DNA of 64,000 nt from Axinella damicornis (lineage: Eukaryota > Porifera > Demospongiae > Axinellida > Axinellidae), in contig OZ007512.1 of NCBI GenBank assembly GCA_963931865.1, positions 2,089,950 through 2,153,949 on the forward strand. The letters are read 5' to 3'. The position numbers and the translations under genes are program-made. The notes beneath the pieces were generated by a model. That model searched no databases, was not told the DNA's origin, and was given only the letters and a program-made list of their open reading frames with translations. How positions within the stretch are numbered: the stretch's first letter is position 1; each line of letters starts with the position of its first letter. This document shows, in pieces, positions 26,984 to 63,446 of the stretch.

Positions 26984-29900
26984 TCAAAACACTTGAATGC
27001 GACTGTTTTCAGTGTCACAGACATACAGGAATCCATCCTGGTCAGTGGTGATCCCATATGGCAAGTCTAGTTCTCCTACTCCACTGCCCTCCCACCCAAA
27101 TGAGGTGATGAATGCTCCTGATGTTTGGAAAATCGATATACGGTTGTTCCACCGCTCAGCGACATAGACATGGTCATGGTCCACATGGATACCCACTGGG
27201 TAAGACAGTTCACCCGGTCGACTGCTAGGCACACCAAATGTTCTCAGATATGTTCCATTCTGGGAAAACACCTGGACACGAGAATTGTCACGATCTGCAA
27301 CATACACACTACCAGCAGGGTCAAAGCTCAGATCATAAGGCGAACTCATCTCACCCTCACCACTTCCTGCTTTGCCAAAACAGAAGACGGATTTCAGGTT
27401 AGTGTCAAATACTTGTATCCTCTGATTGAGGGAGTCACAAACAAACAGCTTGTTGTCCTGACTGAGAGCAATGTCACAGGGAAAATGAAACTGTCCTGTC
27501 TTGCCACCCTCACCACCAACTGACTTCACTAATTTTCCATTGGAGTTAAACTTGGACAATCTGTGCGATTTTGTATCAGTAACATAAATGTTACTATCCT
27601 CGTCAATAGCAACTCCCAATGGGTTCAGCTTGTGCCTTCTGATGCCTGACCTAACAGATGTAGTGTCAATGCTCCTGATCCTCTTACAATCTCCACCGAT
27701 TATAGAGACTTTGTGGTACTCACTAACAACGAGCTCTCCACTGCTAGTGGTGGCTACCATAAGTGGATTGTGAAGTTCTTTGTGGATGACTCTGACTGGC
27801 CTGCCCAGTAGATGAGGAGCTTGCCTGGCGTACACTAGGAATGGGCTTCCCTGCACTGGCACATCATTCACTCGTATACTCAACTCGAATCGACCTCGTG
27901 TGTTAGGCTGGTATGAAACCTCATAAATGTCTGGGGTCTTGTGTGCTACACTGGCGGGAGTGACTGAGCTGTCTACGAGGGACCTCAGCTCTGTAGTGAC
28001 CTGCTGTTCAGTGGTACGGGGATCACCAGCCATGTCCACCAAGTGGACCTCAAAGTGAGCTTGTTGACCAGTCTCTGCCAGCTCCAAGCCCTGCCCAACC
28101 ACAGTGCATCTCTGAGGATCCGGCTGTAAGGCAGGGAGGGGTAGGGAGGGAGTAGTTGAAATTAGCATAATTATTTCTAGTGACTTCCTGCATTGCGTAC
28201 AGACAATCACTATAGCGACCAGCCCCGGGTACTTCCTTGATACGAAATGATTGCCTACCCATCATCTAACAATGGGATCTAAGGAGTGATTTAAAACAAG
28301 GTCACACGATCGCACATGCTTGTTCAATTTGATCTTGGGATAATGGATCTGGAAGTGCAATTTCGTTGTCAGTACCACCACCATCAACTACTAGTAGCCT
28401 CATTCCCAGGCCCTGTACCGACTACCTGGGAATGAGTCTATGTCAATGCATGGGTACTTCCTTGACAAAGTTTGTCTCCAAGCAGATTGATCACAAGATG
28501 TGTTCATTCGGTGTCAGTACCATCACCATCTAGCTAGCTAATGCTGTACATCTGGTAACGATCATTTCATGAAATTTCATGAGATGAGTTAGATTTGTCG
28601 GAGAGCAAGCCATTAATGGAATATGTAGCTTGCGTTTGTGGCTACCGTGTTTGTTGTGAGATGTGGGAAACAAGTATTCTCATGTGAAAACGTGCCGGGT
28701 AGCACTATACAAACAGGTTCATGTATGATGTGACACACACATTCCAAAACTACCTGAGATGCAGCATTCTTCTTCTCCCTGAGCTCTGCTATCAGCTGCT
28801 GGAAGGACTCCATTTGTCGGTGGGTAGCCTCTAGCCGTCTCTTCCCCTCCTGTTTCTCATCCTCAGCCTCCACCAACTTGGCCCTCAGCTCTGAGGTCTC
28901 CACCATCAGCCTGTGCAGTTCCTCCTCCTCCTCCTCTGATTGGCACCTGCTCACTCCCTGCAGTCGAGCTTGCAGTGTCTGCAGCTCTTCCGAAAGCTCT
29001 GCAATCTCCCTCTCCCTCTCTGCAATGGTCTGCTTGAAGCCCTCAACTTCAGAATGTGGTATTGCGTTATACTCCTCCTCCACAGAGGACAGTTGATCCT
29101 TGAAAAGAAATGAACACACACATAGTTGATACACCATTGTTGACTACGTGGTGTACACTAACCAATCAGGTGTGTATGCGAATTATTGCAACTAAAATCA
29201 AAATCAGTCAGCAAAATTAATTTACAAGCACCTTAATTTCCTTTTGAAGAGCCTCTTTGGAGCTAGCAGCACTCTGAATCAGTAGCATCTCCACCTTCAT
29301 ATTCTCCCTATCCAGGTAGATCTCCAACCTGTCCCTTTCCCGCTCCAGTTGACGTACGGTTGCCGACTTCCCTTCCAGTTTAACGGTCACCTTCTGGAGT
29401 TCCTCCCTCATACTTCGGGCCTCTTCTCTGGCACCCCCCAACTCCCTCTCCACCTCCCTCAACTGATCCTGCAACTGCCTCACCTCTGCATCCTTGTTCA
29501 TCAAGACTGCCTTCAGCTCTTCCCTCTCCCTCTCCTCCTCCTCTCTCTCCCTCTGCTGTCCCTGCAACTGCTGCAGAAACCTCAGCTCCCTCTGCCTAAA
29601 CTGTAGCTGCCTCTCCACTTCCTTCCTTCTCTCCAGCAACACCTTAACCCTCACATAGGCACCATCAGCCTCCTGTCTGGTGTGAAGTCGCTTGTTTCTG
29701 GCAGACATTCTCTCGTTTGTGGCCTGCTCAAGGGCGTGGTTTATCCTACTCAGTCGCTGGTCGTCCCCCTCCAGTTCATGGTTCAGCTGCTGAGCATGAC
29801 CGAGTAGTTGAGACTGGAGGGATGACACTTTCTGCAGAGAAGGAAAGAGAAATTGTATTTACAAGGGAACAAAATTAATGGTGTTGTTAATGAATTCAAA

Positions 29901-32900
29901 GTTCACTAGGTACCTCTTTCACAACAGGGAACTGCAGTAGCTCCTTTCTCTCCACTGCAGATGGGACTGCCACTCCTGCACATGTGAAAGAACAATGAGA
30001 TGGAAATTCATTAAATGGCTTGTCCACTGAACAATAGTACTGATTTATAATTCCACAGAAGCCACATAAGGAGATCCCTTCTGGCAATACTGGTAATGAT
30101 ATTCATGACCACCCACAAGCCCAGCAATTGGAGGTCAAATCCGTGTTCTTAGTTCTCTGTAGGCCTGTAGGTTTAGGTTGGTCCAAGCGTTCATGCAGCA
30201 CTCTTTACACTGTCGGTGTCTCTCACAGTACAAGAAGTTCATACATGAAGATCACACATGAATAGTATCTGTGGTGTCACTCACCATATTTCAGTGCAAC
30301 TTTCTGAGCGAGGGCTCCCATCCTCATCCCCACCAGAGCCCTGACCACGGTGGACCATGAGGCCTCCCTGGTCTGCCTCAGCCACGTCACAAGCATCTCG
30401 GTCTTGCAGTCCTCTGTCTCCCTGCGGTCTGCCCTGATCTTCATCAGCTCAGGTGGAGAGATGTCCAGGTAGATCCCCAGCTGGAACCACCTGATGACAT
30501 CGTGCAGCTCACAGACAAGATCTTTTATGGCGAGTTGAGCTGAAGAAAGGAGAGTGTGCCTCTCATTCAGAACAGTAACTGGACAACGTCATCATTACTA
30601 ACCGGAGGAATACCAGGGTTCTCCAGGGGCACCACACTCCCACCATGTAGCCCTTCCCATTTTATAGGCCTTGATTACATGCATGCAGTGTTCCCAACTT
30701 ATTTTCGCATTGCATGTAAAGGGGTCATATTGGAATGGTGTGAATCTCATTATTTATATACACTCTCTTAAACAGATTTCTGGCAAGCCAATGGAGGTGT
30801 AGAACAGCAATGAAAACTGGATAAACATAATTGAGCATTACTTAGCTAGTTATTAAAAAGCAATTTCAAAGTTGGTTACAGGAAGGAACCTGGAGTTACA
30901 TCCCATAGTTGCATTCACTGTACCTTAAGGCTACTATTAATTGTGGGGACTGATTTCAGCAAGCACAGCCGAATTCGCTAAAATTTGTAGTCACTAATAA
31001 TTAAAATAGCTTAATACCCTACCACATTGACTGATCCTGTGGAAATTGCTAAGTTGTACTCACAGTTAATAGCAACCTAGTATATTTTCGTTGCGTGTAA
31101 ATTTGTCGGAATGGGTAGATTGTGTCACTTGTGGCAGCCAGCTATTGGCAAATACAAAATTCATCAACCGCTGAATTCAGTACATATATACAGGATGGAA
31201 GTTTACTCATACCAAAAATTAGTGTATATACTACAAAAGGAAATAGTTGTTTTAAGGATTACAACCAGACCAGATACTGGAGTGACCCTTGAGTAAACTT
31301 TCAGCCACACACTCTGAATTAGCGCTGAGGGAGAATCCCGCAACTGTAGCAAGTACATGTATTACGCAAGCTGTTAGGATTTTTTTTGCAATGTTTACGG
31401 TAAGGGTATTCCTACATTAATAGTACAGCTAAATAAATAAGGAAGCCTCATTCCCAGGCCTTCTACACCTCCAGTTTTTGATTGACTGCAAGCAATCAAA
31501 AACTGGAGGCATAGAAGGCATGGAAACAAGGCCATAAATATGGTGCGTTGCTCCAAACATAGATACTACTTCCAAGAGCAGAATTAAGCTGTGTCCGCAA
31601 GCCCGGTACAAAGCATAGTTGTATGTATGACAGTCGCAAGCTAGTCCATGCAGGCAAGCCATATATGGTAGTAATACCCTGCTCAGTTGAACCTACGCGG
31701 GCTTCACGTACTACTTAGCGCTGTTGGCTCATTTCCTACCATCAAGATGGTGGCTAAAGAATGGGTGTGGCAGTGGCACACTCTTATTGTGATTAATTTT
31801 TGTCATACACCAAGATGAATATTTCCAAGATCCGGATCCGAGGAGCCAAAAGAATCCATGCATACTCGTGAGCTGCATGGTGCTCTCATATCCTGTTCCC
31901 CAACAAGCTTAGGAAAGGGTTACTATTGGGTGGACCTCTTTGAAATAACTGATCCGGTGGTTTACATAAGTAGATGTCACAATCATAAACCAAACTATGG
32001 AAAATGTTAAGGTTGGCTGCATTATAAGCCGCTACATGTATAAGACATACATGGGGAAACTCCCAGTAATGAGATCAGTGCATGGTATCACACTAACACA
32101 CACGGTCTCCTATACCTTGTCCAGGTGTCTTCTTGATCTTAGTCCTGTACGCCTGAAAGAGGGACCAGTAGTTAAACATTTCACTCTCCTTGAAGAGAGC
32201 CATGCAGGCAGAGTGGTTCTCCAGGGTCACTTCCACCACCCGGGCATCCTTCGTCACTGTATCAGGACGAACAAGAAACAGCTGAAGCTGGACATGAGTG
32301 GGGAGCTGATCACTAGCTGGCTGTTGGCTGCTAGCAGGCTGCTGGTCAGAGGTAGGCTGGACACTACCGGGCTGCTGGTCAGAGGTGGGCTGGACACTAC
32401 CGGGCTGCTGGTCAGAGGTGGGCTGGACACTACCGGGCTGCTGGTCAGAGGTGGGCTGGACACTCCTGGGCTGCTGGTCAGAGGTGGGCTGGACACTACC
32501 GGGCTGGTCAGAGGTGGGCTGGACACTACCGGGCTGCTGGCATTGAGTGGGGAATCCCACAGGGAATAGAGACTCCAGTTGCTGCTGAGCAGATCCTCTA
32601 TTAATGAGAAATTTCCTCAGATTGTGCTCAGAGGAGAAGGAGACTGGGAACAGAGGCACTTCCTCGCAGTGGACATCACCGACTCGAGAGACCCCACAAG
32701 TCTTCACCACCTCTTCCAGGGAGGATCGGATGGAGTGGAGGGGGAGACTGAGGCTGGGGTAGCGGCAGCTGAGGGTGAGTTCTCCCTCAATGGAGCACCC
32801 AACTTGAGCAGGTTGGCCGTTGATGGTGACTGGTGTTCTCAGCAGGAAGAAGCTGCTGTAGTAGGTGGTGTGGGGAGTTAGTCGGAGCTGGCTTGGTAGG

Positions 32901-32935
32901 ATTTTGGCAGAAGACAGTGGCTCTTCAGAGGTCAT
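26984..32935 (-). CDS. Copy A: Death-coiled coil-filamin-NHL protein, apparently intact
   Basis: Six coding exons: 32935-32116, 30539-30285, 29975-29914, 29831-29232, 29098-28754, 28123-26984. They sum to 1,073 codons plus stop with every phase matching. Residues 1-125 form an unrecognised conserved region, then Q/P/S-rich 11-residue repeats (QPGSVQPTSDQ), then a second unrecognised block to ~273. A Death domain follows at ~275-355 (ELMKIRADRRETEDCKTEML, TWLRQTREASWSTVVRAL), coiled coil at ~380-690, a filamin-type Ig repeat at ~695-800 (PNTRGRFELSIRVNDVPVQG, SPFLVYARQAP) and five to six NHL repeats to the end (GVAIDEDSNIYVTDTKSHRL, FDPAGSVYVADRDNSRVQVF), stopping right after RIQVF. MTSEEPL at 32935 is preferred as start because TATTGCAG just upstream looks like an acceptor; an alternative ATG is at 32959. 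There is no RING or B-box, unlike TRIM2/3/71. Function is inferred: cytosolic adaptor or sensor. Confidence 0.85.
28394..28440. mobile_element. Foldback insertion in copy A intron 5
   Basis: AGCCTCATTCCCAGGCCC pairs with CTGGGAATGAGTCT. The same insertion is at the matching position in copy D (63680-63725) and missing from copies B and C. Confidence 0.7.
30540..32115. other. Intron 1 of copy A
   Basis: No gene was seen. The stretch contains a TAGCCTCRTTCCC-family foldback at 31442-31533 (inner arms CCAGTTTTTGATTG and CAATCAAAAACTGG) and otherwise AT-rich unique sequence. Parts (AGTTTACTCATACC, CTACAAAAGGAAA) recur in intron 1 of copy C near 57910. Confidence 0.7.
32335..32545 (-). repeat. 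33-bp coding repeat in exon 1 of copy A
   Basis: About six tandem units of 30-33 bp encode QQPGSVQPTSD. Copy B has four units (about 42845-42985) and copy C three or four diverged ones (58600-58715). Unit length is a multiple of three, so the number of units can change without breaking the frame. Confidence 0.9.
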
Positions 32936-33093
32936 GGCTGATTGTGTGAGTGTCTGCAATAATTTATATGCTCGCAGCTACACGGTGATATAGTCTATAG
33001 AACGTTCCACAGCCTACAGACGAAAGTGCAAATTAGCAATCACGATCACCCTAGATCTACTATGATCTCCAAGATGCCGGGGAAACAACGTAC

Positions 33094-33150: not shown

Positions 33151-33158
33151 CTGTGTGG

Positions 33159-35359: not shown

Positions 35360-36120
35360 GCAATCACACCGCTTTCTGCCTCGTCAAAACAGAAGACGAA
35401 TTTCAGTTTAGTGTCAAATACTTGTATCCTGTGATTGTAGCTGTCACAAACAAAGAGCTTGTTATCCTGACTGAGAGCAATGCCACGGGGAAAATCAAAC
35501 TGTCCTGTCCTGACACCCTTACCACCAACTGACTTCACTAATTTTCCATCAGAGTTCAACTTGGACAATCTGTGTGATTTTGTATCAGTAACATAAATGT
35601 TACTATCCCCATCAGCAGCTACTCCTGAAGGGTTCAGCTTGTACCTTCTGATGCCTGACCTAACAGATGTATAGTGTCAATGCTGCTGACCCTCTCACCA
35701 TCTCCACAGATTTCGCCCGGCTCACAAACAATGAGCTCTCCACTGCTAGTGGTGGCTATAACACATGGATAGCTAAGTCCTTTGATGACTCTGACTGGCC
35801 TGCCCAGTAGATGAGGAGCTTGCCTGGCGTACACTAGGAATGGGCTTCCCTGCACTGGCACATCATTCACTCGTACACTCAACTCGTGTCGACCTCGTGT
35901 GTTAGGCTGGTATGAAACCTCATAGATGTCTGCGGTCTTGTGTGCTACACTGGCGGGGGTGACTGAACTGTCCACGAGGGACCTCAGCTCTGCAGTGACC
36001 TGCTGTTCAGTTGTGCAGGGATCACCAGCCATGTCCACCAATTAAGTGGACCTCAAAGTGAGCTTGTTGACCAGTCTCTGCCAGCTCCAAACCAACCACA
36101 GTGCATCTCTGAGGATCTGG
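35360..36120 (-). pseudogene. Copy E: truncated filamin-NHL exon
   Basis: This is the last exon of the family with several lesions: a 6-bp deletion near 36090, a 4-bp insertion (ACCAATTAAGTGG) near 36043 that shifts frame, a 2-bp insertion (GATGTATAGTG) near 35668, and truncation after the second or third NHL repeat at about 35360. The filamin part (PNTRGRHELSVRVNDVPVQG) is readable. Upstream intron sequence is kept to about 36450, then breaks into NAF1-flank sequence. No other exons exist. Confidence 0.85.
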
Positions 36121-37092: not shown

Positions 37093-40000
37093 AAAAAAAA
37101 GGAAGAAAGCTATGGGCCTATAGTAAGTATAATAATCAATAATTATGGCAAACAATACTGATACATACTCACATGTTCAAAACACTTGAATGCGATTGTT
37201 GAATGAGTCACAGACATACAGGAATCCATCCTGATCAGTGCTGATCCCATATGGGTTCCGCAGTTCTCCTTCTCCACTGCCCCTCCTGCCAAATGAGGTG
37301 ATGAATTCTCCTGATCTGTGGAATATTGATATACGGTTGTTCCCCCCCTCAGCAACATAGACATGGCCATGCTCCACATGGATACCCCTTGGCCTAGACA
37401 GTTCACCTGGTCCACTGCCACCCACACCAAATGTTCTCAGATATGTTCCATTCTGCGAAAACACCTGGACACGATGATTGTTACTATCTGCAACATACAC
37501 ACTACCAGCAGGGTCAAAGGTCAGATCATTAGGGAACCTCATACCACTTCCTGCTTTGCCAAAACAGAAGATGAATTTCAGGTTAGTGTCAAATACTTGT
37601 ATCCTGTGATTGTCCCTGTCACAGACAAAGAGCTTGTTATCCTGACTGAGAGTAATGCCACGGGGATAGTCAAACTGTCCTATCTTGCTACCTTCACCAC
37701 CAACTGACTTCACTAATTTTCCATCGGAGTTCAACTTGAACAATCGCTGTGATACTAAATCAGTAACATAAATGTTACTATCCTCGTCAACAGCTACTCC
37801 GTATGGGTCCAGCTTGTACCTTCTGATGCCTGACCTAACAGATGTAGTGTCAATGCTCCTGATCCTCCTACCATGTCTACTGATTATGGAGATTTTATGG
37901 TCCTCACTAACAACAAGATCTCCACTCCTAGTGGTGGCAACCATGAATGGAGCATCAAGATCTTTGATGACTCTGACTGGCCTGCCCAGTAGATGAGGAG
38001 CTTGCCTGACGTACACTAGGAATGGGCTTCCCTGCACTGGCACATCATTCACTCGTACACTCAACTTGTGTCGACCTCGTGTGTTAGGCTGGTATGAAAC
38101 CTCATAAATGTCTGGGGTCTTGTGGGCTACACTGGTGGGGGTGACTGAGCCATCCACGAGGGACCTCAGCTCTGCAGTGACCTGCTTTTCAGAGGTACAA
38201 GGATCACCAGCCATGTCCACCAAGTGGACCTCAAAGTGAGTTTGTTGACCAGTCTCTGCCAGCTCCAAGCCCTGCCCAACCACAGTGCATCTCTGAGGAT
38301 CCGGCTGTAAGGGATCGAGGGATGGGTAGGGAGGGAATACTTGAAATTTGCATATTTCTAGTGACATCCTGCATTGCATACAAACAATCACTATAGTTAC
38401 CAGCTCATAATGATGAGATGGGTACTTCCTGGATATAAAAGATTATCTACCCACTATCTAACAATGAGATCTAAAGTAAACAATGTCACTACACAATCTC
38501 ACATGCTTGTTTAATTTGACAAAGTTTTGTCTCCCAGCAGATTGATCACAAGATGTGCTCTTTCAGTGTCACTCAGTACCATCACCATCAATAGCTCTAG
38601 CTAGCTAATACAGCACATCTGGTAATGATCATTTTGTAAAATTTCATGAGATGAGTTAGATTTGTAGGGTCGGAGAGTTAGCCATTAACTGAATAGGTTT
38701 GACCTCACACACAGGCTTTTTGATTTACCAAACACAGTTTGAAATAGCTACCGTGTTAGTTGTGAGATTTGGGGAAACAAGTACTCACATGTCAAAAGGA
38801 ACCGAGTAGCACTATACTGTATAGTGCTATAGAGTGCTATAATAGGCAATTGTGCTTATTGTAAGATTTGGGGAACAAGTAGCTACTCACATGTAAAAAG
38901 GTATCGGGTAGCACTATACAAACAGGTACATGTATGATGTGACACACGTTCTAAAACTACCTGAGATGCAGCATTCTTCTTCTCCCTGAGCTCTGCTATC
39001 AGCTGCTGGAAGGAGTCCATTTGTCGGTGGGTAGCCTCCAGCCGTCTCTTCCCCTCCTGTTTCTCATCCTCAGCCTCCACCAACTTGGCCCTCAGCTCTG
39101 AGGTCTCCACCGTCAGCCTGTGCAGTTCCTCCTCCTCCTCCTCCGATTGGCACCTGCTCACCCCCTGCAGTCGAGCTTGCAGTGTCTGCAGCTCTTCCGA
39201 AAGCTCTGCAATCTCCCTCTCCCTCTCTACAATGGTCTGCTTTAAGGCATCAACTTCTGAATCAGAATGTGGTATTGCGTTAAACTCCTCCATCATAGAT
39301 GCTAGTTGATCCTTGAAAAGAATACGCACACACAGTTATACACCATTGTTGACTACATTTAGTGTGGTGTGCACTAACCATTTAGGTGTGTATGGGAATT
39401 ATTCAATTTGTAGGGCGTATGACAACTAAAATCAACATCAGCCCGCAAAATTAATGTACAAGCACCTTAATTTCCTTTTGAAGAGCCTCTTTGGAGCTAG
39501 CAGCACTCTGAATCAGTAGCATCTCCACCTTCTTATTCTCCCTATCCAGGTTGATCTCCAACCTGTCCCTTTCCCGCTCCAGTTGTCGTACGGTTGCCGA
39601 CTTAACTTCCAGTTCAACGGTCACCATCTGGAGCTCCTCCCTCAATTTTCGGGCCTCTTCTCTCGCACGCCCCAACTGCCCCTCCACCTCACTCAGCTGA
39701 TCCTGCAACTGCCTCACTTCTATATCTTTGCTCATCAAGACTGCCTTAAGCTCTTCCCTCTCCTCTTCCTCTCTCTCCATCTGTTGCCCCTGCAACTGCT
39801 GCAGAAACCTCAGCTCCCTCTGCCTAATCTGTAGCTGCCTCTCCGCTTCCTTCCTTCTCTCCAGCAACACCTCCACTCTCACATAGGCACCATCAGCCTC
39901 CTGTCTGGTGTGAAGTCGCTTGTTTCTGGCAGACACTCTCTCCTTCAGCTCCTGCTCAAGGGCGTGGTTTATCTCACTCAGTTGTTGGTCGTCCCCCTCC

Positions 40001-40252
40001 AGTTCATGGTTTAGCTGCTGAGCATGACTGAGTAGTTGAGACTGGAGGGATGACACTTTCTGCAGAGAAATGGACAGACAGTAAATATGGGATATATATT
40101 ATGGTGTTGCTAATGAGCTACCTCTTTCACAACAGGGAACTGTAGTAGCTCCTTTCTCTCCACTGCAGACGGGATTATCACTCCTGGACATGTGAAAGAA
40201 CAATGAGATGGAATTTGAGAATCTACACCGATTTATATTCCACAGAAGTCAC

Positions 40253-40546
40253 CAGTGGCGGATTTGGGGGGGGGGGGGGGGGGGGGGGGGGGGTGCAAAT
40301 GCATCCCCTTTGGTGGCTAGTGAAAGTAACTTACATCTCATGTACAGCAGTTTTGGATTTGTTCCATCATCTTTTTTAGTCTACAGCGCTAGACAAGCCA
40401 CCTTGAATTTCAGAACTCAGGTCAGACATACGTGTGTCATGAATGCATTCACATGACCTGTAGTGGGTGTGGCAACACAATTTTGCTGGCACACTTTGCA
40501 CGTCAGTGACTGAACTCCCTTTTCTAAATTTCTATATCCGCCACTG
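40253..40546. mobile_element. MITE, CAGTGGCGGAT ends, with 5-bp target duplication
   Basis: CAGTGGCGGAT and ATCCGCCACTG are perfect inverted ends, flanked by GTCAC on both sides (40248-40252, 40547-40551). The undisturbed site is seen in copy A as CACAGAAGCCACATAAGG. The inside begins with a long poly-G run (40266-40293). Inserted in intron 2 of copy B. Confidence 0.85.
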
Positions 40547-41023
40547 GTCACACAGGGAGATCCCCTTCTGGCAAAGCTATTATTGATATTCATGACCACC
40601 CACAAGCCCAGCAATTAGAGGTCAAAGTCTACTTAGTGCTCTATCAAGTGTATTATTCTCTGCAAGCTAGGTTGGTCCAAATAATCATACAGCACTCTGT
40701 GCAGCGTTGGTGTCTCTCACAGCGCAAGAAGATCACACATGAATATTATCTGTGGTGTCACCCACCATATTTCAGTGCGACTTTCTGAGCAAGGGCTCCC
40801 TCCCTCATCCCCACCAGAGCCCTGACCACAGAGGACCATGAGGCCTCCCTGGTCTGCCTCAGCCACGTCACAAGCATCTCGGTCTTGCAGTCCTCTGTCT
40901 TCTCCCTGTGGTCTGCCCTGATCTTCATCAGCTCAGGTGGAGAGATGTCCAGGTAGATCCCCAGCTGGAACCACCTGATGACGTCATGCAGCTCACAGAC
41001 AAGATCTTTTATGGTTAGTTGAG

Positions 41024-42627
41024 CTGAAGAAGGGAGAGTGAGCAGGCCTCTTGTTGATTTCAGAATGACCAGTATTGATATTCTCTCTATAGTCTAGTAG
41101 TTCTGCAGCCATGCAGCTAGTACTTGTCTATACCATTCCGAAACACACTTGTGAAACCAGCACTCCCATCACACCCCACCACGTAGCAACCATATATAAT
41201 TGTAATGGAAAAATATCGTGTTGTAATTTGTATCCTGGTCGGAACTAGCATCGAACCCAGGCACATGCAGAGGAGGGGAGAGAGTTAGGTTTGAGGCTAG
41301 GTCGTAACTACCTAACCAATTAAATAGGGTTTGTAGGTCTCCTGGATGCTAGTGTGCATGGGAACACCGTAAAAATTCTGAGTAGTTAGCGGTGGGGTAT
41401 AACCTAAATTCGTTGCATGAATTGCAATTTTTGTACTGGGTTTGTGAGATCTGCAGCACCAGGTTGGTGTGCAACTCAGAATTGGATACCCATGTCAGAG
41501 TGCAGTAACATTCATCACATTGGTGCCATCTGGGTGCAATATTCACACGATGACGCTCAATGGTCAGGAAAATATTCATGGTTAATTGGAACTCAGGTTA
41601 CTATATTCATGCATCAGCTATTGGCTAGCTAGTTGTGTTTGTGGGGCAAAAGCTATTCATATTTTTGTTATTGGATAAACAACTGTTTAAGTGGCAAAGG
41701 CAGGACCAAGGTCTGGGGATGAGTCATCGCTGAACTGCAACTGAGGCAGCTGGTGAAACCAAACCTCCGAACAGACCCAACTATGATTGTAGCAATCATA
41801 ATTAATATAAAATTTGTAACATGGTCGTAACTTCCTAACCAATCAAACAATGAAATAGGGTCTAACACAGGTTTTATGAATTGGCACTTCAAATAGCCTG
41901 AGGCATTATAGTGGCAAATGTCTCTGCCTGTCATGTGGAAGAGTCAACGTGGATCATGAGTCCTCTCTTTCCTAATCTTGCTGCTAGCACAGAAACCTTT
42001 GTTAGTGTGCAGCCTGATAAAGCCTCCCCACGGAAATGGACTAGTTGATGCAGACTAGACAGTAGATGCTCATTGTAATGTTTGGTTAATTTCCTGTATG
42101 ATGATGCATTATGATGTCATGACCTATTATAAAATGCTGCAGTTGATTCAGTTTAGTCAGTGTTGCATTTTGTTGTTGTATGAGCTCAATAAAGAGATTT
42201 CCTGTATGATGATGCATTATGATGTCATTTCCTGTATGATGATGCATTATGATGTCATGACCTATTATAAAATGCTGCAGTTGATTCAGTTCAGTCAGTG
42301 CTGCATTTTGTTGTTGTATGAGCTCAATAAAGAGATTTTGGATATCAATACTACTCGATAGAGCCGTACAAACACTACATTCATCACACCTGTCAGTCCA
42401 TAATCATGCTTCATCTATGAACTTTGACATTAGATCTCGGTTGGAAGTTTGGAGTAGCCGCATGCAGTCAGACAACACATGACCTAGCTACATACCTACA
42501 TAAATTAAGCATTCACTGGCCACCTGCACAAGGGTCAAAGGTTAATTAGGGTGGGGCAAAGGCTCAGTTGACTATTCATGGATAACTGCAAGGCATGCAT
42601 CACACTCACATAAATGGCCTCCTATAC
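41024..42627. other. Intron 1 of copy B
   Basis: No gene was seen. It includes a phrase used twice (GGTCGTAACTTCCTAACCAA at 41824 and a near copy at 41301) and the tandem duplication at 42092-42340. Confidence 0.6.
42092..42340. repeat. Tandem duplication carrying AATAAA signals
   Basis: TTTCCTGTATGATGATGCAT ... GAGCTCAATAAAGAG occurs twice (about 42092-42200 and 42226-42338) with a short third start between them. Each full unit ends in CTCAATAAAGAGATTT, a possible polyadenylation signal on the plus strand. Confidence 0.8.
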
Positions 42628-49671: not shown

Positions 49672-49808
49672 CCGGCCTACCCCGTTCTTTCTGTTCTTCA
49701 GTTTGCGTTGACAATAATACACGGATGCGGAAGAGCGGCGAAGAATGCCGTGCCGCCCTTCCATCAACAGAACAGAAAACAAAAACGGGGTAGGCCTTGC
49801 AACGAGAG
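49672..49808. mobile_element. Foldback element, subtype of 22091-22228
   Basis: GCCGGCCTACCCCGTTC pairs with ACGGGGTAGGCC. The core holds TTGCGTTGACAATAATACAC. The outer TAGCCTCGTTCCC ends are degraded. Confidence 0.6.
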
Positions 49809-50036
49809 TTGTGAGACAGCTGTCTTCCCAAAAAAGCGCAATGGTCCCAATCTGAGATCTCAAGATTCACTGCACAATCTCGAGACTGGCACGCAACTCC
49901 CGGATTCCGAGAATGTGCAGCGCAATCTCAAGATTGCACAAATTCCTAATTTGCGCAGACCCTATGGTTATGATTATAATGACAGAATTAGGGGGAATGG
50001 CAGGTTAGGACGGAGTGTTACTGTCATCATATCAGT

Positions 50037-53000
50037 ATGCACTGCAGACAGTGGACTACTTGTCTCCCAGGTCTTTGAGACGTTCGGCCCAGTGAAGAAG
50101 CCGTACCATTCCATCCGTGTCAACTCCCCGGATCATGTGACCTCTCCGGGACTGACCCCCAACACCGTAGTCTATGTTGTTGCTGGCAACCTTGAAATGA
50201 CGAGATACGTCTTCACAGAGAAGCTGATGAGGTAGCACCCTCTCTCTCCCCTTTACCCCTCTTTCCTTCCCGCCCCCTCCTCCCTCTCCCTCACACCCTC
50301 ACGCTCTGCTAGCTGTGACCCTGTCCCCTCCTCCCTTTCCCTCACACCCTCACACTCTACTAGCTGTGACCCTGTCCCCTCCCTAGCTCTCCCTCACACC
50401 CTCACATTTGAATCCCTTCGTTGCTCCTTTACCACCCCACACTCTCCTCACACACTCTCCTCCTCCCTGACACCATCGTCACACCCTCACCCCACTCTCT
50501 CCACAACACACTCTCCTCCCTCTCCTCACACCCTCACACCCTCACACCCTCACATCTTCATTCCTCACACCTACACTCTCCACACTGCAGCCAGAGGGTA
50601 TCTGACTCATCGTGGAAAGATGATTCAGAAATCCCAGCAGAGGTACGTGTGTGGAGTGTGAGATGTGACGTGTGAGGGGTGAGATGTGACATATGTGTGA
50701 GGTGTGTCAGATATGATTGTGTGGTGAGATGTGGGGTACGTGTGAGGAATGAGGTATAATATGATGTGTGCGTGGTGTGAAATGTGAGGTGTGTGAGATG
50801 TGAGATGCATTCATAGTGCATGGTGTGAGATGTGAGGTGTGTGAGATGTGAGATGCACGGTATTATTACAGTGACAGTATAAGGACGATGTTCTGCTATA
50901 TAGTAGGGCTGTGCGATAATCGTAATTTATCGTGATAAAGATATCAATTATCGTGTGACATTTTAGTTCTTAATGGCATAACAACCTTGCTGTTTCCTGT
51001 GAAGAACATGCTAACCACTGCCACTAAGATGTGTTCTATATGGTACAGGACTAGCCATGTCAATTCTGGAAAAGGGCACATTAATGTTGTCACGTTTGTA
51101 GTAGTTCCCATACTGCGCCCATGCATGCAGGCCTACTACATAGGCCTCTATGCAGACTAGTAGTTCCCATACTGCGCCCATGCAGGCCTACTATATAGGC
51201 CTCTATGCAGACTAGTAGTTCCCATACTGCGCCCATGCAGACCTACTATATAGGCCTCTATGCAGACTAGTAGTTCTCATACTTCGCCCATGCAGGCCTA
51301 CTATATAGGCCTCTATGCAGACTAGTAGTTCCCATACTGTGCCCATGCAGGCCTACTATATAGGCCTCTATGCAGACTAGTAGTTCTCATACTTCGCCCA
51401 TGCAGGCCTACTATATAGGCCTCTATGCAGACTAGTAGTTCTCATACTTCGCCCATGCAGGCCTACTATATAGGCCTCTATGCAGACTAGTAGTTCCCAT
51501 ACTGTGCCCATGCAGGCCTACTATATAGGCCTCTATGCAGACTAGTAGTTCTCATACTTCGCCCATGCAAAGGAAAGGACATGTTAATGTTGTCATGTTG
51601 TAGTGGTTCCCATGGATACTTTGCCCATGCAGGCCTACCATAATATGCCTCTATCAAAGGGCACGGTGACACATACATTTATACACATTGTGTGTTACAC
51701 ACAAAACACATACACACACTCACAGTTCCAGGAGTTCTCCGACGATGAAGCTGAGGCTAAATCTCGTGACCAGAAGCACGGAGGAAGAAAGTAAGTTTGT
51801 TAATCTCTTTGTCTTGTCTGGCCACTCAACTGCATAATACAGCATCACTTTGTATGTCTGTAACATTAAGTGAAGCAGAAGTAACTTTGTACGTGCTTAG
51901 TGGAAGAACAGCATTGCGCTCATGTTGATTCCCACATTGCTTGTTCCTTTCTTCCTCCCTCGTCTTCTCCCTCCTCCTCCCTTCCCATGCATTCTCCCCT
52001 CCCTACCTCCTCCTCTCCTCTTCCTCTCCTCTTCCTATCCTCCTTCCCTCCCCCTTCTCTTCACTTACCCTCTCCACAAACACCCCCACACAGAAGAAAA
52101 CTAAATGCCTCCAACCACCCTCACGTACCACATGGAAACCAGCACAGAAGTGCCACATCCCATGTTCAACCGAACACCAGACCGTTCTTTGAACGACCTC
52201 CCCGGCCCCACAGAGCCCCCTCGACGATCCCCCCGGTCATACCACAGCAGGGAGATTACCCTACTCTTCCTCCGTACTTCATTGGGCAGCTGCCTCCTGG
52301 AGGGTTCCCACCAGCTCTCCCCTACTACCAACAACCATATGGACCTCCTCTACAGGTAGTAGCCATGGCAACAGTGCACACTTGGGGGGGGGGGGGGGGG
52401 GGGGGGGGGGTGAGGAATTGGGAATTGGCCCAGGAGTAGGTGCGGGCATCAAAGTAGATCACTATTCTGGGTTAACCAACCAGAAAGGACACATTAGAGA
52501 GGCACAGGCCCTTACATGTAGCTAGGCCTGGCGAGAACACAACCTGTGCCAGGCATTTGACCCGGTGGATCATGAAGGTCACTGACCTAGGGACCCACAG
52601 GAAAATTCCGGAACCTTACAAACCGACTTCTGACTTGTAAGCTCTGGAACCGTGCTAAAGTGGCGGGCAAGCAATGGTATGCGTGACTGCGCAATTTTTG
52701 AGGCGTGGTTTCTGATTCACCACTCTCGAGTGCACCAGCAGCAGTACAAGCCATCCAAGATGTCATACCACCATCCCCCTTCCAAGGCTGTTGGTTGACA
52801 CCGTGCCGAGTTGCATGAGAGCTACTTTGTACATACTTCGTACACATGATGACAACGCCAGCTGTAAATCTCCAATGCTCTCATCCACTCTCAGCTCTGG
52901 CAGCTGGTTTCAGTATTACTAGTCTAATTACTTTGTATCACTATTTGCAACATGTTTCCCCTCCCCAGGCTCCGCCCACCTACTACTTCCCCCTCTACGA

Positions 53001-53800: not shown

Positions 53801-56800
53801 TCAAAACACTTGAATGCGATTGTTGTAAACATCACAGACATACAGGAAGCCATCCTGGTCAGTGGTGATCCCACGTGGGTACTGCAGTTCTCCTTCTCCA
53901 CTGCCCGGCCTGCCAAATGAGGTGATGAATGCTCCGGATGTGAGGAATATCGATATGCGGTTGTTCCCCCACTCAGTAACATAGACATGGTCATGGTCCA
54001 CATGGATACCCATTGGGGCAGACAGTTCACCTGGTCCACTGCCACACACACCAAATGTTCTCAGATATGTTCCATTCTGGGAAAACACCTGGACACGATG
54101 ATTGTCACAGTCTGCAACATACACACTACCAGCAGGGTCAAAGGTCAGATCATAGGGCAAATTCATCTCACCCTCACCACTTCCTTCTTTGCCAAAACGG
54201 AAGACGAATTTCAGGTTAGTGTCAAATACTTGTATCCTGCCATTGGTTCTGTCACAAACAAAGAGCTTGTTGCCCTGACTGAGAGCAATGCCACGCGGAT
54301 CACCAAACTGTCCTATCCTGCCACCCCCACCACTAACTGACTTCACTAATTTTCCATCAGAGTTAAGCTTCGACAACCTGTGTGATTCCCCATCGGTAAC
54401 ATAAATGTTACCATCCTCATCAACAGCAACTCCCCATGCATCCAGCTTGTATCCGATCGCTGTCCTAACAGATGTAGTGTCAATGCTCCTGATCTTCTCA
54501 CTATCTCTACTGATTGTGGAGATTTTATATTTCTCGCTAACAACAAGCTCTCCGCTGCTAGTGATGGCTACCCTACGTGGACTATTAAGTTCTTTGATGA
54601 CTCTGACTGGCCTGCCCAGTAGACGAGGAGCTTGCCTGGCGTACACTAGGAATGGGCTTCCCTGCACTGGCACATCATTCACTCGTACACTCAACTCATG
54701 TCGACCTCGTGTGTTAGGCTGGTATGAAACCACATAAATGTCTGGCGTCTTGTGTGCTACACTGGCGGGGGTGACTGAGCTGTCCACGAGGGACCTCAGC
54801 TCTGCAGTGACCTGCTGTTGGGTGGTACAGGGATCACCAGCCATGTCCACCAAGTGGACCTCAAAGTGAGCTTGTTGACCAGTCTCTGCCAGCTCCAAGC
54901 CCTGACCAACCACAGTGCATCTCTGAGGATCCGGCTGTAAGGGAGGGAGGGGTAGGGAGGGGTAGGGAGGGGTAGGGAGGGGTAGGGAGGGAGTAGTTGA
55001 AATTTGCATATTTCTAGTAGCTCCTGCATTGCGTACAGACAATCACTATAGTTACCAGCTGGATACAAATGATTGCCTACCCATTATCCATCACAATTAA
55101 TGGAAAAACCAATCTGTTAGGAGACAAAACTATGTCAAGCATGTGAGGCTGAGTAGTGACATTGTTTAGATCTGAGTGCTTCCATTGCCAGTACCATCAC
55201 TGTCAACAGCTAATACCGCCACGATGATACTCTGTGTGTGCTTCCATTGCCAGTACCATCACTGTCAACAGCTAATACCGTGGTAGCCATCATGACCGTC
55301 ATAAATTTTCGGGAGATATGGTTCATGGTTGGAGAGCTAGGAATTAACGGAATATGGTTGACCTCATACACAGGCTTCTTGATTTGCGAAAGAGACTTAT
55401 GAAATAGCTTAGTTGGGGCAAGCCTGAGCGAGCCCCACACTAGCGTGACTTCATTGCGCTGTGCGTGTGTATGTTTGGCTGGATCTTGCAATTACTGTAA
55501 CTTTTAAATCAGCGAATTCCACTTGCACGTGCACAATAACATTCAAATTCAACTAACTCAAGCCCTACGCACTTGCAAGGAATCGTTAGCTACCTGTTCG
55601 ACGGACGATGGCGACAACAAAGACGGAGAGACCACTCGTGGACATTGGCTAGAGCACCATGAACATTCTGCCTCCTCGGTGGCGACACTGGCAAAGACGG
55701 AGACCATTGCTCGTGGACCTATATACCGCCATGGCCGGTGATGTTGCTGCTAGACTGCTTCAGCTATAAACGCTAACATGACTCTCACAGTTGCTGTGAT
55801 GTGTACGAGTATTATGTTCAGTGCCATAATTTCTGTAGCCTATGCTCATTGCCCTGTCACATTCTGATGACAGTCATGTGAATGCAACTGCTCCATGCAT
55901 GTCCTGCAGCACATGCATGCACTTCGCTCAGGCTCGCCATCCACTGTCCTGCATTCCACTAGTTTAGGATATTTGGGAAACACGTACTCGCATGTAAAAA
56001 GGAGCTGGGTAGCACTATACAAACAGGTATATATTTATGATGTGATACACACATCCTAAAACTACCTGAGATGCAGCATTTTTCTTCTCCCTGAGCTCTG
56101 CTATTAGGTGCTGGAAGGACTCCATTTGTCGGTGGGCAGTCTCCAACAGTCTCTTCCCCTCCTGTTTCTCATCCTCAGCCTCCACCAACTTGGCCCTCAG
56201 CTCTGAGGTCTCCACCGTCAGCCTGTGCAGTTCCTCCTCCTCCTCCTCCGATTGGCACCTGCTCACCCCCTGCAGTCGAGCTTGCAGTGTCTGCAGCTCC
56301 TCTGAAAGCTCTGCAATCTCCCTCTCTCTCTCTGCAATGGTCTGCTTGAAGCCCTCAACTTCAGAATGTGGTATTGTGTTATACTCCTCCTCCATAGATG
56401 CTAGTTGATCCTTGAAAAGAAATAAACACACACATGCACACAGTTGATACACCATTGTTGACTACATTTAGTGTGGTGTGCACTAACCATTCTGGTGTGT
56501 ATGGGAATCAACATCAGCCCACAAAATTAATGTAGCTACAAGCACCTTAATTTCCTTTTGAAGAGCCTCTTTGGAGCTAGCAGCACTCTGAATCAGTAGC
56601 ATCTCCACCTTCTTATTCTCCCTATCCAGGTAGTTCTCCAACCTGTCCCTTTCCCGCTCCAGTTGACGTACGGTTGCCGACTTCCCTTCCAGTTCAACGG
56701 TCACCCTCTGGAGCTCCTCCCTCAAACTGGAGGCCTCTTCTCTTGCACCCCCCAGCTCTCTCTCCACCTCCCTCAGCTGATCCTGCAACTGCGTCACTTC

Positions 56801-59107
56801 TGCATCTTTCCTCATCAAGACTGACTTCAGCTCTTCCCTCTCCCTCTCCTCCTCCTCTCTCTCCATCTGTTGCCCCTGCAACTGCTGCAGAAACTTCAGC
56901 TCACTCTGCCTAAACTGCAGCTGCCTCTCCACTTCCTTCCTTCTCTCCAGCAACACCTCCACCCTCACATAGGCACCATCAGCCTCCTGTCTGGTGTGAA
57001 GTCGCTTGTTTCTGGCAGACACTCTCTCCTTCAGCGCCTGCTCAAGGGTGTGGTTTATCTCACTCAGTTGTTGGTCATCCCCCTCCAGTTCATGATTCAG
57101 CTGCTGAGCATGACCAAGTAGTTGAGACTGGAGGGATGACACTTTCTGCAGAGAAATGGACAGACATGCACAGTAAATATGAGACATATATTATGGTGTT
57201 GCTAATGAGCTACCTCTTTCACAACAGGGAACTGCAGTAGCTCCTTTCTCTCCACTGCAGACGGAACTGCCACTCCTGCACATGTAATAGAACGAGACAG
57301 AGTCTGGATCGTTGGTCAATAGCTATAGTTCCACAGAAATCACTGCATGTTAGCTGCTTACTCGCTGATTACAACGTTCATGGTCAGTATTAGATTCTGT
57401 GGTGTGGCTGACCATATTTCAGTGCGACTTTCTGAGCGAGGGCTCCCTCCCTCATCCCCACCAGAGCCCTGACCACAGTGGACCATGAGGCCTCCCTGGT
57501 CTGCCTCAGCCACGTCACAAGCATCTCGGTCTTGCAGTCCTCTGTCTCCCTGCGGTCTGCCCTGATCTTCATCAGCTCCGGTGGAGAGATGTCCAGGTAG
57601 ATCCCCAGCTGGAACCACCTGATGACATCGTTCAGCTCACAGACAAGATCTTTTATGGTTAGTTGAGCTGAAGAAAGGAGAGTGGGCCTTTTATTATTTT
57701 CGGAAATGTAAAAAATTATCATAAGCACATGCTTTTCGCATATTATCTGTGATCCAACTTGGAGTAACCTTACCATATTGGTGTAGTAAACACTCGTGCG
57801 ATAAACTTCATGGAGTTTCAGTGTGACAGTGTCATTCTGACTCACTCACAGTCTGACGTGTAGTATCTACAGCAACCACTGAATTTGGTACTGTAACAAG
57901 GGTTGAAGTTTACTCAGACCATGTACTACAAAAGGAAACAGTTGTTTTACGAAACTATTTGATTAGACAACCACACCAGATATTGGAGTGGTACTTGAGA
58001 AGCCACTCACTGAATTAGCAGGAAAGAAACCACGAAAATGGGACAAGTTCAACAACACAACTTTCCTATGTAGCTCCCAATACAGTTGCTATACTTCCAA
58101 GCAGTGCATTTGTCAACAAGCGTGGGAAAGGGTTGGTAACCAACACCAGTGCTGATCTCTTTTAGTATTGTGAATTATCTGGAACTGTTCTTCGGCGGCT
58201 CGATGCACCCTTGGTACCAGTCACAAACACAATCACATTAAATGTTATGGCTGCTTGGTCAGTTTAGAAGTCCATTGAGCGACCAGGTTCTAAATATGTA
58301 TGTTGCGGCCTGATTTTGAACCTTTGACCCTAGCAATAAAACTACATCCTCCACATCACACTCACACACACAGCCTCCAATACCTTGAGTGAGTGTTATC
58401 TTGCTCTTTGTTCTGTACGCCTGAAAGAGAGACCAGAAGTCAAACATTTCACTCTCCTTGAAGAGGGCCATGCAGGCAGAGTGGTTCTCCAGGGTCACTT
58501 CCACCACCCGGGCATCCTTCGTCACTGCATCAGGACGGACAAGAAACAGCTGCAGCTGGACATGAGTGGGGAGCTGATCACTAGCTGGCTGTTGGCTGCT
58601 AGCTGGCTGCTGGTCAGAGGTGGGCTGGTCACTAACGGGCTGCTGGCCAGAGGTGGGCTGGTCACTACCAAGCTGCTGGTCAGAGGTGGGCTGGACACTA
58701 CCAGGCTGCTGGTCACAAGCGGGGATCGTCACATGAAAAAGAGACTCCAGTTGCTGCTGAGCAGATCCTTTATGAATCAGAAATTTCCTCACATTGTGCT
58801 CAGAGGAGAAGGAGACTGGGAACAGAGGCACTTCCTCGCAGTGGACATCACCGACTCGAGAGACCCCACGAGTCTTCACCACCTCTTCCAGGGAGGCTCG
58901 GATGGAGTGGAGGGGGAGACTGAGGCTGGGGTAGCGGCAGCTGAGGGTGAGTTCTCCCTCACTGGAGCACCCAACTTGAGCAGGTTGGCCGTTGATAGTG
59001 ACTGGTGTTCTCAGCAGGAAGAAGCTGCTGTAGTAGGTGGTGTGGGGAGTTAGTCGGAGCTGGCTTGGGAGGATTTTGGTAGAAGACAGTGGCTCTTCAG
59101 AGGTCAT
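53801..59107 (-). CDS. Copy C: Death-coiled coil-filamin-NHL protein, apparently intact
   Basis: Six coding exons: 59107-58384, 57667-57413, 57275-57214, 57145-56546, 56410-56066, 54934-53801; 1,039 codons plus stop with all phases matching. Order: unrecognised N-terminal region (LTPHTTYYSSFFLLRTPVTI, GELTLSCRYPSLSLPLHSIR), shortened diverged Q/P/S repeats, second conserved block (ARVVEVTLENHSACMALFKE), Death domain at ~243-325, coiled coil at ~348-660, filamin repeat, NHL propeller. The exon 2 donor is the weaker G|GTCAGC. Exon 4's donor AAG|GTGCTT is unusual but the same in all copies. It lies convergent with NAF1, whose last exon ends about 760 bp from its stop. This copy sits next to the parental NAF1 and may represent the founding unit. 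Confidence 0.85.
55412..55942. mobile_element. Inverted-repeat element in copy C intron 5
   Basis: GGGCAAGCCTGAGCGAGCC at the left pairs with GCTCAGGCTCGCC at 55925-55937. The insert of about 530 bp has no equivalent in introns of copies A and B. There is no transposase ORF; short exon-like reading near 55600-55740 is not supported. Confidence 0.5.
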
Positions 59108-59258
59108 GGCTGATTGTCTGAGTGTCTGCAATAAGTTATATGCTCGCAGCTAGACAGTGATATAGAACGTTCCACAGCCTACAGACGAAAGTGCAAATTA
59201 GCAATCACGATCACCCTAGATCTACTATGATCTCCAAGAAGCCGGGGAAACAACGTAC

Positions 59259-61264: not shown

Positions 61265-61340
61265 CTGTCAGGTCATGGAGCTTGTGACAGCGCACCTCCG
61301 GCACCAGAATCAAGCTGCTGACGATCTTTGTGCTTGAAAG
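61265..61340 (+). other. Small exon-like segment shared with 25580-25650
   Basis: Acceptor-like TTCTGTCAG is followed by a frame VMELVTAHLRHQNQAADDLC and a stop. The same segment is fused to the inverted coiled-coil fragment at 25.5 kb. Gene of origin unknown. Confidence 0.35.
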
Positions 61341-61914
61341 TTTTGATTAACCAGCTCACTGGAGTTCCAGTGAGAACCACACTGGAGGGTATATAATGAG
61401 ATTCATACCATTACATCGCCGTATATTATCAGGGGGAAGCCCCTAATGATTTGACTAGTGTTTCAAATGTTGCTATAATAACCACAGTGCAAAGGGTACA
61501 GTGTGTTTCAACCATAGAGCCAGTTACCGTCAAAGGGCCGTCCATCCAAGAAGTTTCATGCATCTGCTGGAACGTTCAACAAGGGGTTACGCATCCTCAG
61601 TCCAATCCTAATCCATAATTTAGGGATGGGAGGGGACATACCAAGTATCTTTGCTTTATCGAAAGGTATAGGCCATTGCTAAAATCCTTTTGATTTTATG
61701 AAGAAAACCTTTCTTCTTTGTTAATTAATTCGTAGTGGATACAAGCACACTGTCCCAGGCAAGGTCGAGTGGGTACTCAGTGTCATGTCAGTAGTGCAGG
61801 CCGGCTCCTTGTATCACAAGACTAATCACTTTCAAACCAGCTTTACTTCATTAGAATGACATCACTAGTCTAATGACTTTGTATCACTATTAGCAGCATC
61901 TTTCCCCTCCCCAG

Positions 61915-62050
61915 GCTCCGCCCACCTACTACTTCCACCCTCTATGAGCTGACGTGTTCCCTAGAAGTGTTCCTCCTCCCACGATGCTCCCCCTACACCC
62001 TCACCCTTACCCTCACCCTCCCACAGACCGTACCACACACCCTCCACTGT
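61915..62050 (+). pseudogene. Copy of the last NAF1 exon at unit D
   Basis: CTCCCCAG|GCTCCGCCCACC with intact acceptor matches the parental last exon, but downstream bases differ (CCACCCTCTATGAGC). It lies 1.1 kb after the exon 4 duplicate, in the same order as in NAF1. Confidence 0.75.
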
Positions 62051-62309
62051 TTCCATGCAGGACAACAGTAACCGTTTCATTGAGTACATTATCAAATGAC
62101 TTCCAATTTTCTGCTGTGTAATGTGCATGAGAGCGGGTTTCCCAGTACAAAATCAGTGATCAATGATCTGTACCTGTACAAAATAATTATGCATTGCATG
62201 AGTTCTACAATTGTCACAGTGATAATAATTGTATAGCACACAGTATGAACAATCATAATAAGTATGATGTCATAATTATGGTAAACAATACTGATACATA
62301 CTCACATGC

Positions 62310-63446
62310 TCAAAACACTTGAATGCGATTGTTGCCATTGTCACAGACATACAGGAATCCATCTTGGTCAGTGGTGATCCCATCTGGGTACTGCAGTTCT
62401 CCTTCTCCCCAGCCCCACCTGCCAAATGAGGTGATGAATGCTCCTGATGTGAGGAATATTGATATACGGTTGTTCCTCCACTCAGTAACATAGACATGGT
62501 CATGGTCCACATGGATACCCCATGGTGAAGACAGTTCACCTGGTCCACTGCCACGCACACCAAATGTTCTCTGATATGTTCCATTCTGGGAAAACACCTG
62601 GACACGATGATTGTTACTATCCGCAACATACACACTACCAGCAGGGTCAAAGGTCAGATCATAGGGCCAACTCATCTCACCCTCACCACTTCCTGCTTTG
62701 CCAAAACAGAAGACAAATTTCAGGTTGGTGTCAAATACTTGTATCCTGTCATTGCCGCTGTCACAAACAAAGAGCTTGCTATCCTGACTGAGTGCAATGC
62801 CACTGGGATAGACAAACTGTCCTGTCTTGCCACCCTCACCACCAACTGACTTCACTAATTTTACATCAGAGTTAAACTTGGACAATCTGTGTGATTCCCA
62901 ATCAGTAACATAAATGTTACTATCCTCGTCAACGGTAACTCCGAATGGATTCAGCTTGTACCTTCTGATGCCTGACCTAACAGATGTAGTGTCAATGCTC
63001 CTGATCCTCTCACCATCTCTACCGATTATAGAGACTTTGTGGTCCTCACTAACAACGAGCTCTCCACTGCTTGTGGTGGCAACCAGACGTGGACTTCTAT
63101 GTTCCTTGATGACTCTGACTGGCCTGCCCAGTAGATGAGGAGCTTGCCTGGCGTACACTAGGAATGGGCTTCCCTGCACTGGCACATTATTCACTCGTAC
63201 ACTCAACTTGTGTCGACCTCGTGTGTTTGGCTGGTATGAAACCTCATAAATGTCTGGGGTCTTGTGTGCTACACTGGCGGGAGTGACTGAGCTGTCCACG
63301 AGGGACCTCAGCTCTGCAGTGACCTGCTGTTCTGTGGTACAGGGATCACCAGCCATGTCCAACAAGTGGACCTCAAAGTGAGCTTGTTGACCAGTCTCTG
63401 CCAGCTCCAAGCCCTGCCCAACCGCAGTGCATTTCTGAGGATCCGG
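62310..63446 (-). CDS. Copy D: last exon (filamin-NHL) of a further family member
   Basis: A 379-codon terminal exon is open from a TTATAG acceptor (63447-63452) to the stop after RIQVF. The filamin repeat (PNTRGRHKLSVRVNNVPVQG) and NHL repeats (NIYVTDWESHRLSKFN, VYPSGIALSQDSKLFV, GIHVDHDHVYVTEWRNNRIS) are complete. The pyrimidine tract of the acceptor has become a pure C run (G on plus strand, 63452-63469). Exons 1-5 should lie beyond 64000; 63470-64000 is intron 5, matching copy A. Whether the gene is intact cannot be told. Confidence 0.8.
   Translation of the reverse strand, partial: PDPQKCTAVGQGLELAETGQQAHFEVHLLDMAGDPCTTEQQVTAELRSLVDSSVTPASVAHKTPDIYEVSYQPNTRGRHKLSVRVNNVPVQGSPFLVYARQAPHLLGRPVRVIKEHRSPRLVATTSSGELVVSEDHKVSIIGRDGERIRSIDTTSVRSGIRRYKLNPFGVTVDEDSNIYVTDWESHRLSKFNSDVKLVKSVGGEGGKTGQFVYPSGIALSQDSKLFVCDSGNDRIQVFDTNLKFVFCFGKAGSGEGEMSWPYDLTFDPAGSVYVADSNNHRVQVFSQNGTYQRTFGVRGSGPGELSSPWGIHVDHDHVYVTEWRNNRISIFLTSGAFITSFGRWGWGEGELQYPDGITTDQDGFLYVCDNGNNRIQVF

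Follow-up and report, generated by a model that had tools for sequence, protein, structure and literature searches.

What kind of protein does a tandem sponge gene family encode when its members join a Death domain to a coiled coil, a filamin repeat and an NHL propeller, and why do its copies differ so strongly at one end? The family was met in a stretch of 64,000 nucleotides of the Axinella damicornis genome (226 Mb in 120 contigs), here called the window, which spans C8:2089950-2153949 (contig OZ007512.1 of assembly GCA_963931865.1) and holds five copies, all on the minus strand. The genes probably constitute an array of intracellular recognition receptors, built of a TRADD-like module, a long coiled coil and a filamin-NHL arm with a hypervariable face on a nearly fixed scaffold. 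With signalling parts that are alike and a tip that is different in every copy compared, the family resembles a set of recognition receptors encoded in the germline.

Gene models were predicted from the genomic alignment of copies 1, 3 and 4 rather than from RNA. The order given in the original prediction, from an N-terminal domain through Q/P/S repeats, Death, coiled coil and filamin to NHL, is reproduced by these models of six coding exons, which are free of stops in copies 1 and 4. In the aligned copies the intron phases are 1,1,0,0,0 and every intron is GT-AG; a splice donor upstream of coding exon 1, common to these copies, suggests a non-coding first exon. At the readable exon edges of the whole array, the successive acceptors are conserved in 20/20, 21/21, 22/22, 18/19 and 16/16 cases and the donors in 18/18, 20/20, 22/22, 21/21 and 15/16. 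Exon identity among copies 1, 3 and 4 is 89-97%; intron identity, over 15 comparisons with gaps left out of the count, is 44-64% in seven and 66-97% in eight. Filamin and NHL lie far above the Pfam cut-off in copies 1 and 3 and are also supported by PDB sequence matches, while the coiled coil (21 + 200 + 115 residues in copy 4) is called solely from its composition and from weak Pfam coiled-coil families. No RING or B-box was present among the Pfam matches of the copy 1 exons (for one coiled-coil exon, among the 25 of 34 weak matches listed), and neither NACHT nor WD40 was among those listed.

Across contig C8, 22 filamin-bearing units extend from 2116936 to about 2353844, all on the minus strand, with two small fragments on the plus strand. 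The earlier description of a turning-over gene family is supported. Minus-strand matches covering at least 90% of the segment number 19 for N (two with a stop), 18 for N2, 20 for Death, 22 for the linker, 20 and 20 for the coiled coil, 21 for filamin (one with a stop) and 20 for NHL. The last unit showed no N exon, either in the 3 kb upstream of Death or on C8 between 2346372 and 3491476. With an alternative NHL copy as query, the genome contains at least 26 filamin-NHL exons of array type, 21 of them within the array, the count being a lower bound from 105 scored candidates out of 398. Those outside the array lie at C2:13474419, C2:14955328, C8:3494474, C8:7168678 and, in diverged form, C2:8165604, where the full order N-N2-Death-coiled coil-filamin-NHL is found (L034; 38-63% identity per part). 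Genome-wide there are 77 N-domain matches and, among 673 candidates, 150 scored Death matches. Thirty of these 150 are clustered at C4:13520000-13670000, often several within a few kb, and the genome search for the N domain gave no match on C4.

Constraint differs along the protein. The ratio of nonsynonymous to synonymous divergence (dN/dS), averaged among 17 to 19 array copies per segment, is lowest for N, N2 and Death (0.32-0.36), intermediate for coiled coil and filamin (0.46-0.50) and highest for NHL (0.79). Within NHL the variation is periodic, falling at P-2, P-1, P+1, D+1, D+2 and partly D+4 of the blades. Codon analyses of NHL used 19 of the 22 units, omitting truncated copy 2, a two-piece NHL near 2283 kb and the last unit; in 13 of the 19, all seven segments are stop-free at 93% coverage or more. 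When the variable codons were chosen by leaving out one blade at a time, 35 of 278 showed a dN/dS of 2.16 (bootstrap 1.36-3.56) and held 55% of the nonsynonymous differences, with 0.45 for the remaining 243. Of the RNA-contact residues that the available sections of PMC5908797 list for zebrafish LIN41, 14 of 14 fall at hypervariable registers of the sponge NHL. The five LIN41-contact registers (30 codons) have a dN/dS of 2.31 vs 0.48 elsewhere and a maximum-likelihood (ML) omega of 4.69, twice the log-likelihood difference from omega 1 being 78.9; this class comes from the literature, but was looked up after the pattern had been noticed. Each blade shows 18 or 19 distinct five-residue combinations in 19 copies. 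Loop positions on the binding face of the propeller are thus under positive selection, and the concentration of this selection at ligand-contact registers supports the proposal that the propeller acts as a sensor.

Across the 13 complete copies, the pairwise distances of different exons hardly correlate with one another (-0.22 to 0.37); two of the copies differ by 0% in Death and 0.3% in N, yet by 8.3% in NHL. Such a pattern fits exon-scale gene conversion or recombination between copies.

A second propeller type is found on contig C14. At L033 the order N-N2-Death-coiled coil is followed by a Kelch propeller, and five C14 loci between 9.77 and 9.87 Mb carry N, Death and Kelch in order on the same strand, as match positions rather than splice models. 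The Kelch segment has 142 genome matches including fragments, 79 of them on C14, of which 67 lie at 8.46-10.56 Mb; this range of the sister family (C14:8460000-10560000) covers L032, L033 and L038-L047. L032 has four Ig domains between N and Death, and the 20 kb that follow lack a Kelch match; the N and Death matches beyond this locus are similar to its own but are then followed by Kelch. With Kelch in place of NHL in this sister family, the sensor end seems to be exchangeable. The query and its ten next-best matches among the 142 make a set of eleven Kelch propellers, whose overall dN/dS is 1.09. At 30 codons of the Keap1 contact registers, defined as -16, -15, +1, +3 and +6 from GG, the ratio is 2.15 vs 0.69 elsewhere (ML estimate 2.56, twice the log-likelihood difference 10.1). 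The Keap1 sequence and numbering behind these registers are those we take to be standard. Contact residues were drawn from the available text of PMC12266349, except Asn414, which has no occurrence in it; Gln530 is also written Glu530 there, and Val369 and Gly371, which that text places on the bottom side, were excluded from the registers. Beside the Kelch exon, an open reading frame (ORF) at L033:7294-8178 resembles by eye a non-long-terminal-repeat retrotransposon reverse transcriptase.

TRIM-NHL-type genes of the same genome provide a further comparison. By eye, ORFs related to this type contain RING, B-box, filamin and NHL (L008 only in part), so that the earlier wording, in which RING and B-boxes are 'replaced' in the array, is fair. 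L001 and L003 were assigned to the type by 72-77% similarity to L008. Genes of this type are themselves expanded: L001, L002, L003, L005, L006 and L008 (C6). Three such paralogs gave dN 0.73 and dS 0.37 at the registers, and dN 0.10 and dS 0.20 elsewhere; when two more distant paralogs were added, register dN (0.87) was below a near-saturated dS (1.09).

Relatives in the protein database were taken as the best 120 of 440, their contigs being distinguished by length. A database contig of 306,922 bases is this same array, 19 of 19 proteins matching at 99.7-100%. Among the best 120, contigs of 255,893 and 261,178 bases carry 13 NHL exons, 12 of which match the array at 83.6-89.5% and one at 99.7%; two of the 13 were searched for in the assembly and were absent (best 89% and 86%). 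These two contigs may represent another haplotype, individual or close species. A second lineage within the same set, 70-75% identical, carries its N exons and its NHL exons on eight contigs of matching length. In 26 of its proteins from long contigs, register entropy is 2.08 vs 0.36, and 25 of the 30 most variable columns are in register.

The N-terminal region had been regarded as new in kind, a view that needs correction. In the AlphaFold2 model of the copy 4 N domain, the best structural match is TRADD-N (1f3v), as found in a single structural comparison that took a second look at Foldseek's ranking; the model has the RRM-like fold of TRADD-N, and by fold the domain is nearest to TRADD-N. 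N and Death would, on this model, together form a TRADD-like module. At the sequence level the N domain gave no convincing match in PDB or Pfam. TRADD-N and NCOA6 Pfam families were absent from the matches of 11 members (E up to 1) and 41 members (E up to 10), and PF13820 had zero matches in the genome, where the controls were likewise zero. TRADD-N domains are described, in the accessible part of PMC8195603, as having a tiny-Ser motif in the beta2-beta3 turn; no such pair was seen by eye in the alignment of N domains, read without residue-level superposition, whose conserved stretch is E-x-x-P-L-F. Single-sequence searching with residues 1-350 of copy 4 returned 0 of 6,824 candidates at E <= 0.001, whereas an alignment-based search found 390. 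Searches of bacterial or archaeal genome contigs and of viral contigs gave no confirmed relative. Weak Pfam matches, among them the first RNA-binding domain of ZCCHC3 in 5 of 41 members (best E 0.02), were considered and not used. The Q/P/S repeat is located in the linker of the N region, which is short in the relatives seen.

The Pfam check proposed at the outset was clear for filamin and NHL, but left Death just under its cut-off of 22.6 bits in the two copies scanned (22.4 in copy 1, 21.6 in copy 3). Diverged paralogs pass it, with 27.0 bits in L034 and 23.6 bits in L032; L033 has no match, despite a Death exon 41% identical to that of the array. The copy 4 Death exon is alignable with its paralogs.

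Could the propeller loops merely drift in young tandem copies, with no recognition being selected? Loops tolerate change, and some copies are broken or truncated; however, at the registers dN is higher than dS (ML omega 4.7), and register codons differ at positions 1, 2 and 3 in 0.53, 0.44 and 0.24 of comparisons when neighbouring codons, at 0.02, 0.04 and 0.12, barely change at the first two. Between human TRIM71 and zebrafish LIN41, 30 of 30 registers are identical, as are 209 of 240 other positions; with the registers fully conserved from fish to human, the fold does not by itself make them variable. Relaxed constraint is disfavoured on these grounds, and we hold it to be very improbable. 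We also rejected regional hypermutation or a diversity-generating retroelement as the principal cause, since codons next to the registers hardly vary at positions 1 and 2 and register position 1 has no clear adenine bias. It is also quite unlikely that the proteins are RNA sensors or regulators, with an NHL face that binds RNA like those of LIN41 and Brat, the copies tracking viral or transposon RNAs and Death/TRADD-N triggering the response. The hypervariable registers are indeed the LIN41 RNA-contact registers, NHL proteins described in the available sections of PMC5908797 and PMC9070667 bind RNA on the equivalent face, and TRIM-NHL-type genes of this genome are hypervariable too. The 35 variable positions, though, carry a net charge of -3 to +2 with lysine depleted 0.4-fold, whereas the patches described for RNA-binding NHLs are basic, and Kelch, a peptide-binding fold in Keap1, shows the same pattern.

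Allorecognition, with the array encoding individual-specific self markers or sensors for graft or fusion compatibility like fungal het-d/het-e, would account for the low match of 12 of the 13 NHL exons on the two further contigs and for the absence of two from the assembly, both of which would follow from repertoires that vary between haplotypes or individuals. Het-e WD40 has the same geometry as well: in its d-a loop and b-c turn, the residues under selection border a conserved one (PMC1805685, in the part available). Yet the further contigs may stem from another specimen or species, and immune receptors diversify in the same way, so we think this explanation unlikely. The interpretation as a receptor array, which we prefer, has points against it: only three of the 11 Kelch propellers lie downstream of detected N and Death exons, and the apparent hypervariability of the TRIM-NHL-type paralogs counts against the uniqueness of the array pattern.

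How such receptors might work can be outlined. The coiled coil would pair the proteins, as in TRIM proteins, and, given the selection at contact registers, the face of each copy would bind a ligand of its own, either a product of microbes or viruses or an allotypic self molecule. Binding could then cluster Death and TRADD-N and, by analogy with TRADD, recruit Death-fold partners and TRAF-type adaptors, leading to cell-death or NF-kB-like signalling. Germline diversity would be maintained by duplication, by exchange of exons among the copies and by diversifying selection acting on the face, for which the sequences show the pattern. A role in immunity or self-recognition is what we infer from these features. 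DEATH-domain and Kelch genes, possibly of other families, are among the sponge transcripts that change after microbial signals in the available text of PMC6208332.

In the window, copy 1 (26984-32935) encodes 1,073 residues without internal stop, the length originally given for it. Its coding exon 1 (32116-33013, ATG at 32935) carries the TRADD-N-like domain, by its relation to copy 4, and the Q/P/S repeat; exon 2 (30285-30539) encodes Death, exon 3 (29914-29975) is a short linker exon, exons 4 (29232-29831) and 5 (28754-29098) encode the first and second parts of the coiled coil, and exon 6 (26984-28123) the filamin repeat and six-bladed NHL propeller, with the stop at its end. Copy 4 (53801-59107; 1,039 residues, no internal stop) has corresponding exons at 58384-59178 (TRADD-N-like; ATG at 59107), 57413-57667 (Death), 57214-57275 (linker), 56546-57145 and 56066-56410 (coiled coil, first and second parts) and 53801-54934 (filamin and NHL, stop at end; PDB sequence match). 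Copies 2 and 3 are the truncated and the damaged copy, as had been predicted. What remains of copy 2 (about 35368-36120, by sequence matching) is filamin in a broken frame and roughly half of NHL. Copy 3 (37177-43447) no longer has the ATG used by copies 1 and 4 and has a 2-base insertion in its N-terminal exon (42628-43447, by alignment); its Death exon is at 40766-41023, the linker at 40122-40183, the coiled coil at 39466-40059 (first part) and 38961-39311 (second part), and filamin and NHL at 37177-38304. The supposed partial copy, copy 5, is incomplete in the window but is merely cut by its end: the filamin and NHL exon, matched by sequence, is at 62310-63446, the gene extends to about C8:2158678, and its seven coding segments, followed into the genome, contain no stop and span at least 93% of those of copy 4.

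Other features were noted in passing. A lone coiled-coil fragment of the family (67% identity) lies on the opposite strand at 25420-25653 of the window. On the plus strand at 49672-50235, an ORF has a Gar1/Naf1 RNA-binding Pfam match (30.4 bits, cut-off 29.3), from which an unrelated gene seems to be present on that strand between copies 3 and 4. Positions 5083-5282 are a run of 200 N. Elsewhere in the assembly, C120 carries a mitochondrial-type cox1 (L029, L031; TGA as Trp) that looks demosponge-like and is split by introns, with ORFs that by eye are like homing endonuclease and reverse transcriptase, and a second COX1 match, an uninterrupted frame of 486 codons, lies on a large contig (C4:14811759-14813060, L030).

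The candidate bears on multi-target recognition by animals without adaptive immunity and on self/non-self discrimination in sponges, among the oldest animal lineages. It is compact and defined by sequence, with a constant signalling module, a hypervariable face whose selected residues are defined by register, two propeller kinds and dozens of genes. Like TRIM2/3 and TRIM71/LIN41, the proteins end in coiled coil-filamin-NHL; unlike them they have no RING or B-box found here, TRADD-N-like and Death parts standing instead, and the TRIM71 registers are conserved. FinTRIM and TRIM5 B30.2 proteins belong to TRIM families that are large or evolve fast, and their C-terminal binding domain has variable loops; they differ in that B30.2 is not a propeller and RING is kept. 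From TRADD itself the family is set apart by the fused sensor arm, the tandem array and the lack of detected sequence similarity.

As originally proposed, no named family with the exact order N-Death-coiled coil-filamin-NHL was found in the searches made, and neither a Death-filamin-NHL order nor hypervariable NHL faces were found among the papers listed from one open-access library (20 of 95 and 10 of 34 in two of the listings). The broader kind is, however, in print: the accessible part of PMC8195603 (eLife 2021) describes expansions of TRADD-N and Death-like domains with variable C-termini, 357 proteins of the sponge Amphimedon among them, and the array receptors may be a variant of these. 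Lineage-specific expansion and variable C-termini, here NHL and Kelch, are common to both, and the amphioxus and oyster versions carry WD40 propellers, highly variable in amphioxus; 'nhl' and 'kelch' have no occurrence in the text available. The array differs in that TRADD-N, by fold only, precedes Death, where the published sponge order has Death-like first, in its coiled coil-filamin-NHL or Kelch C-terminus, and in the contact-register selection measured here. In het-d/het-e (PMC1805685, in the part available), four WD40 codons in the d-a loop and b-c turn are under selection, and they border conserved residues; positive selection beside a conserved propeller residue and concerted evolution in a gene family are shared. 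In the sponge the propeller is NHL or Kelch, the host is an animal, the other parts are Death and TRADD-N-like with no NACHT seen, and exchange is seen between exons, blades lying outside the comparison. Possibly, although we put it forward only tentatively, the sponge genes are a TRADD-like receptor repertoire with interchangeable hypervariable NHL and Kelch propellers, exon shuffling and near-complete differences between haplotypes. They would then be an animal counterpart of het-d/het-e with the TRADD order outside vertebrates, which would affect the age of that order, since PMC8195603, in the sections available, describes the TRADD clade as confined to vertebrates.

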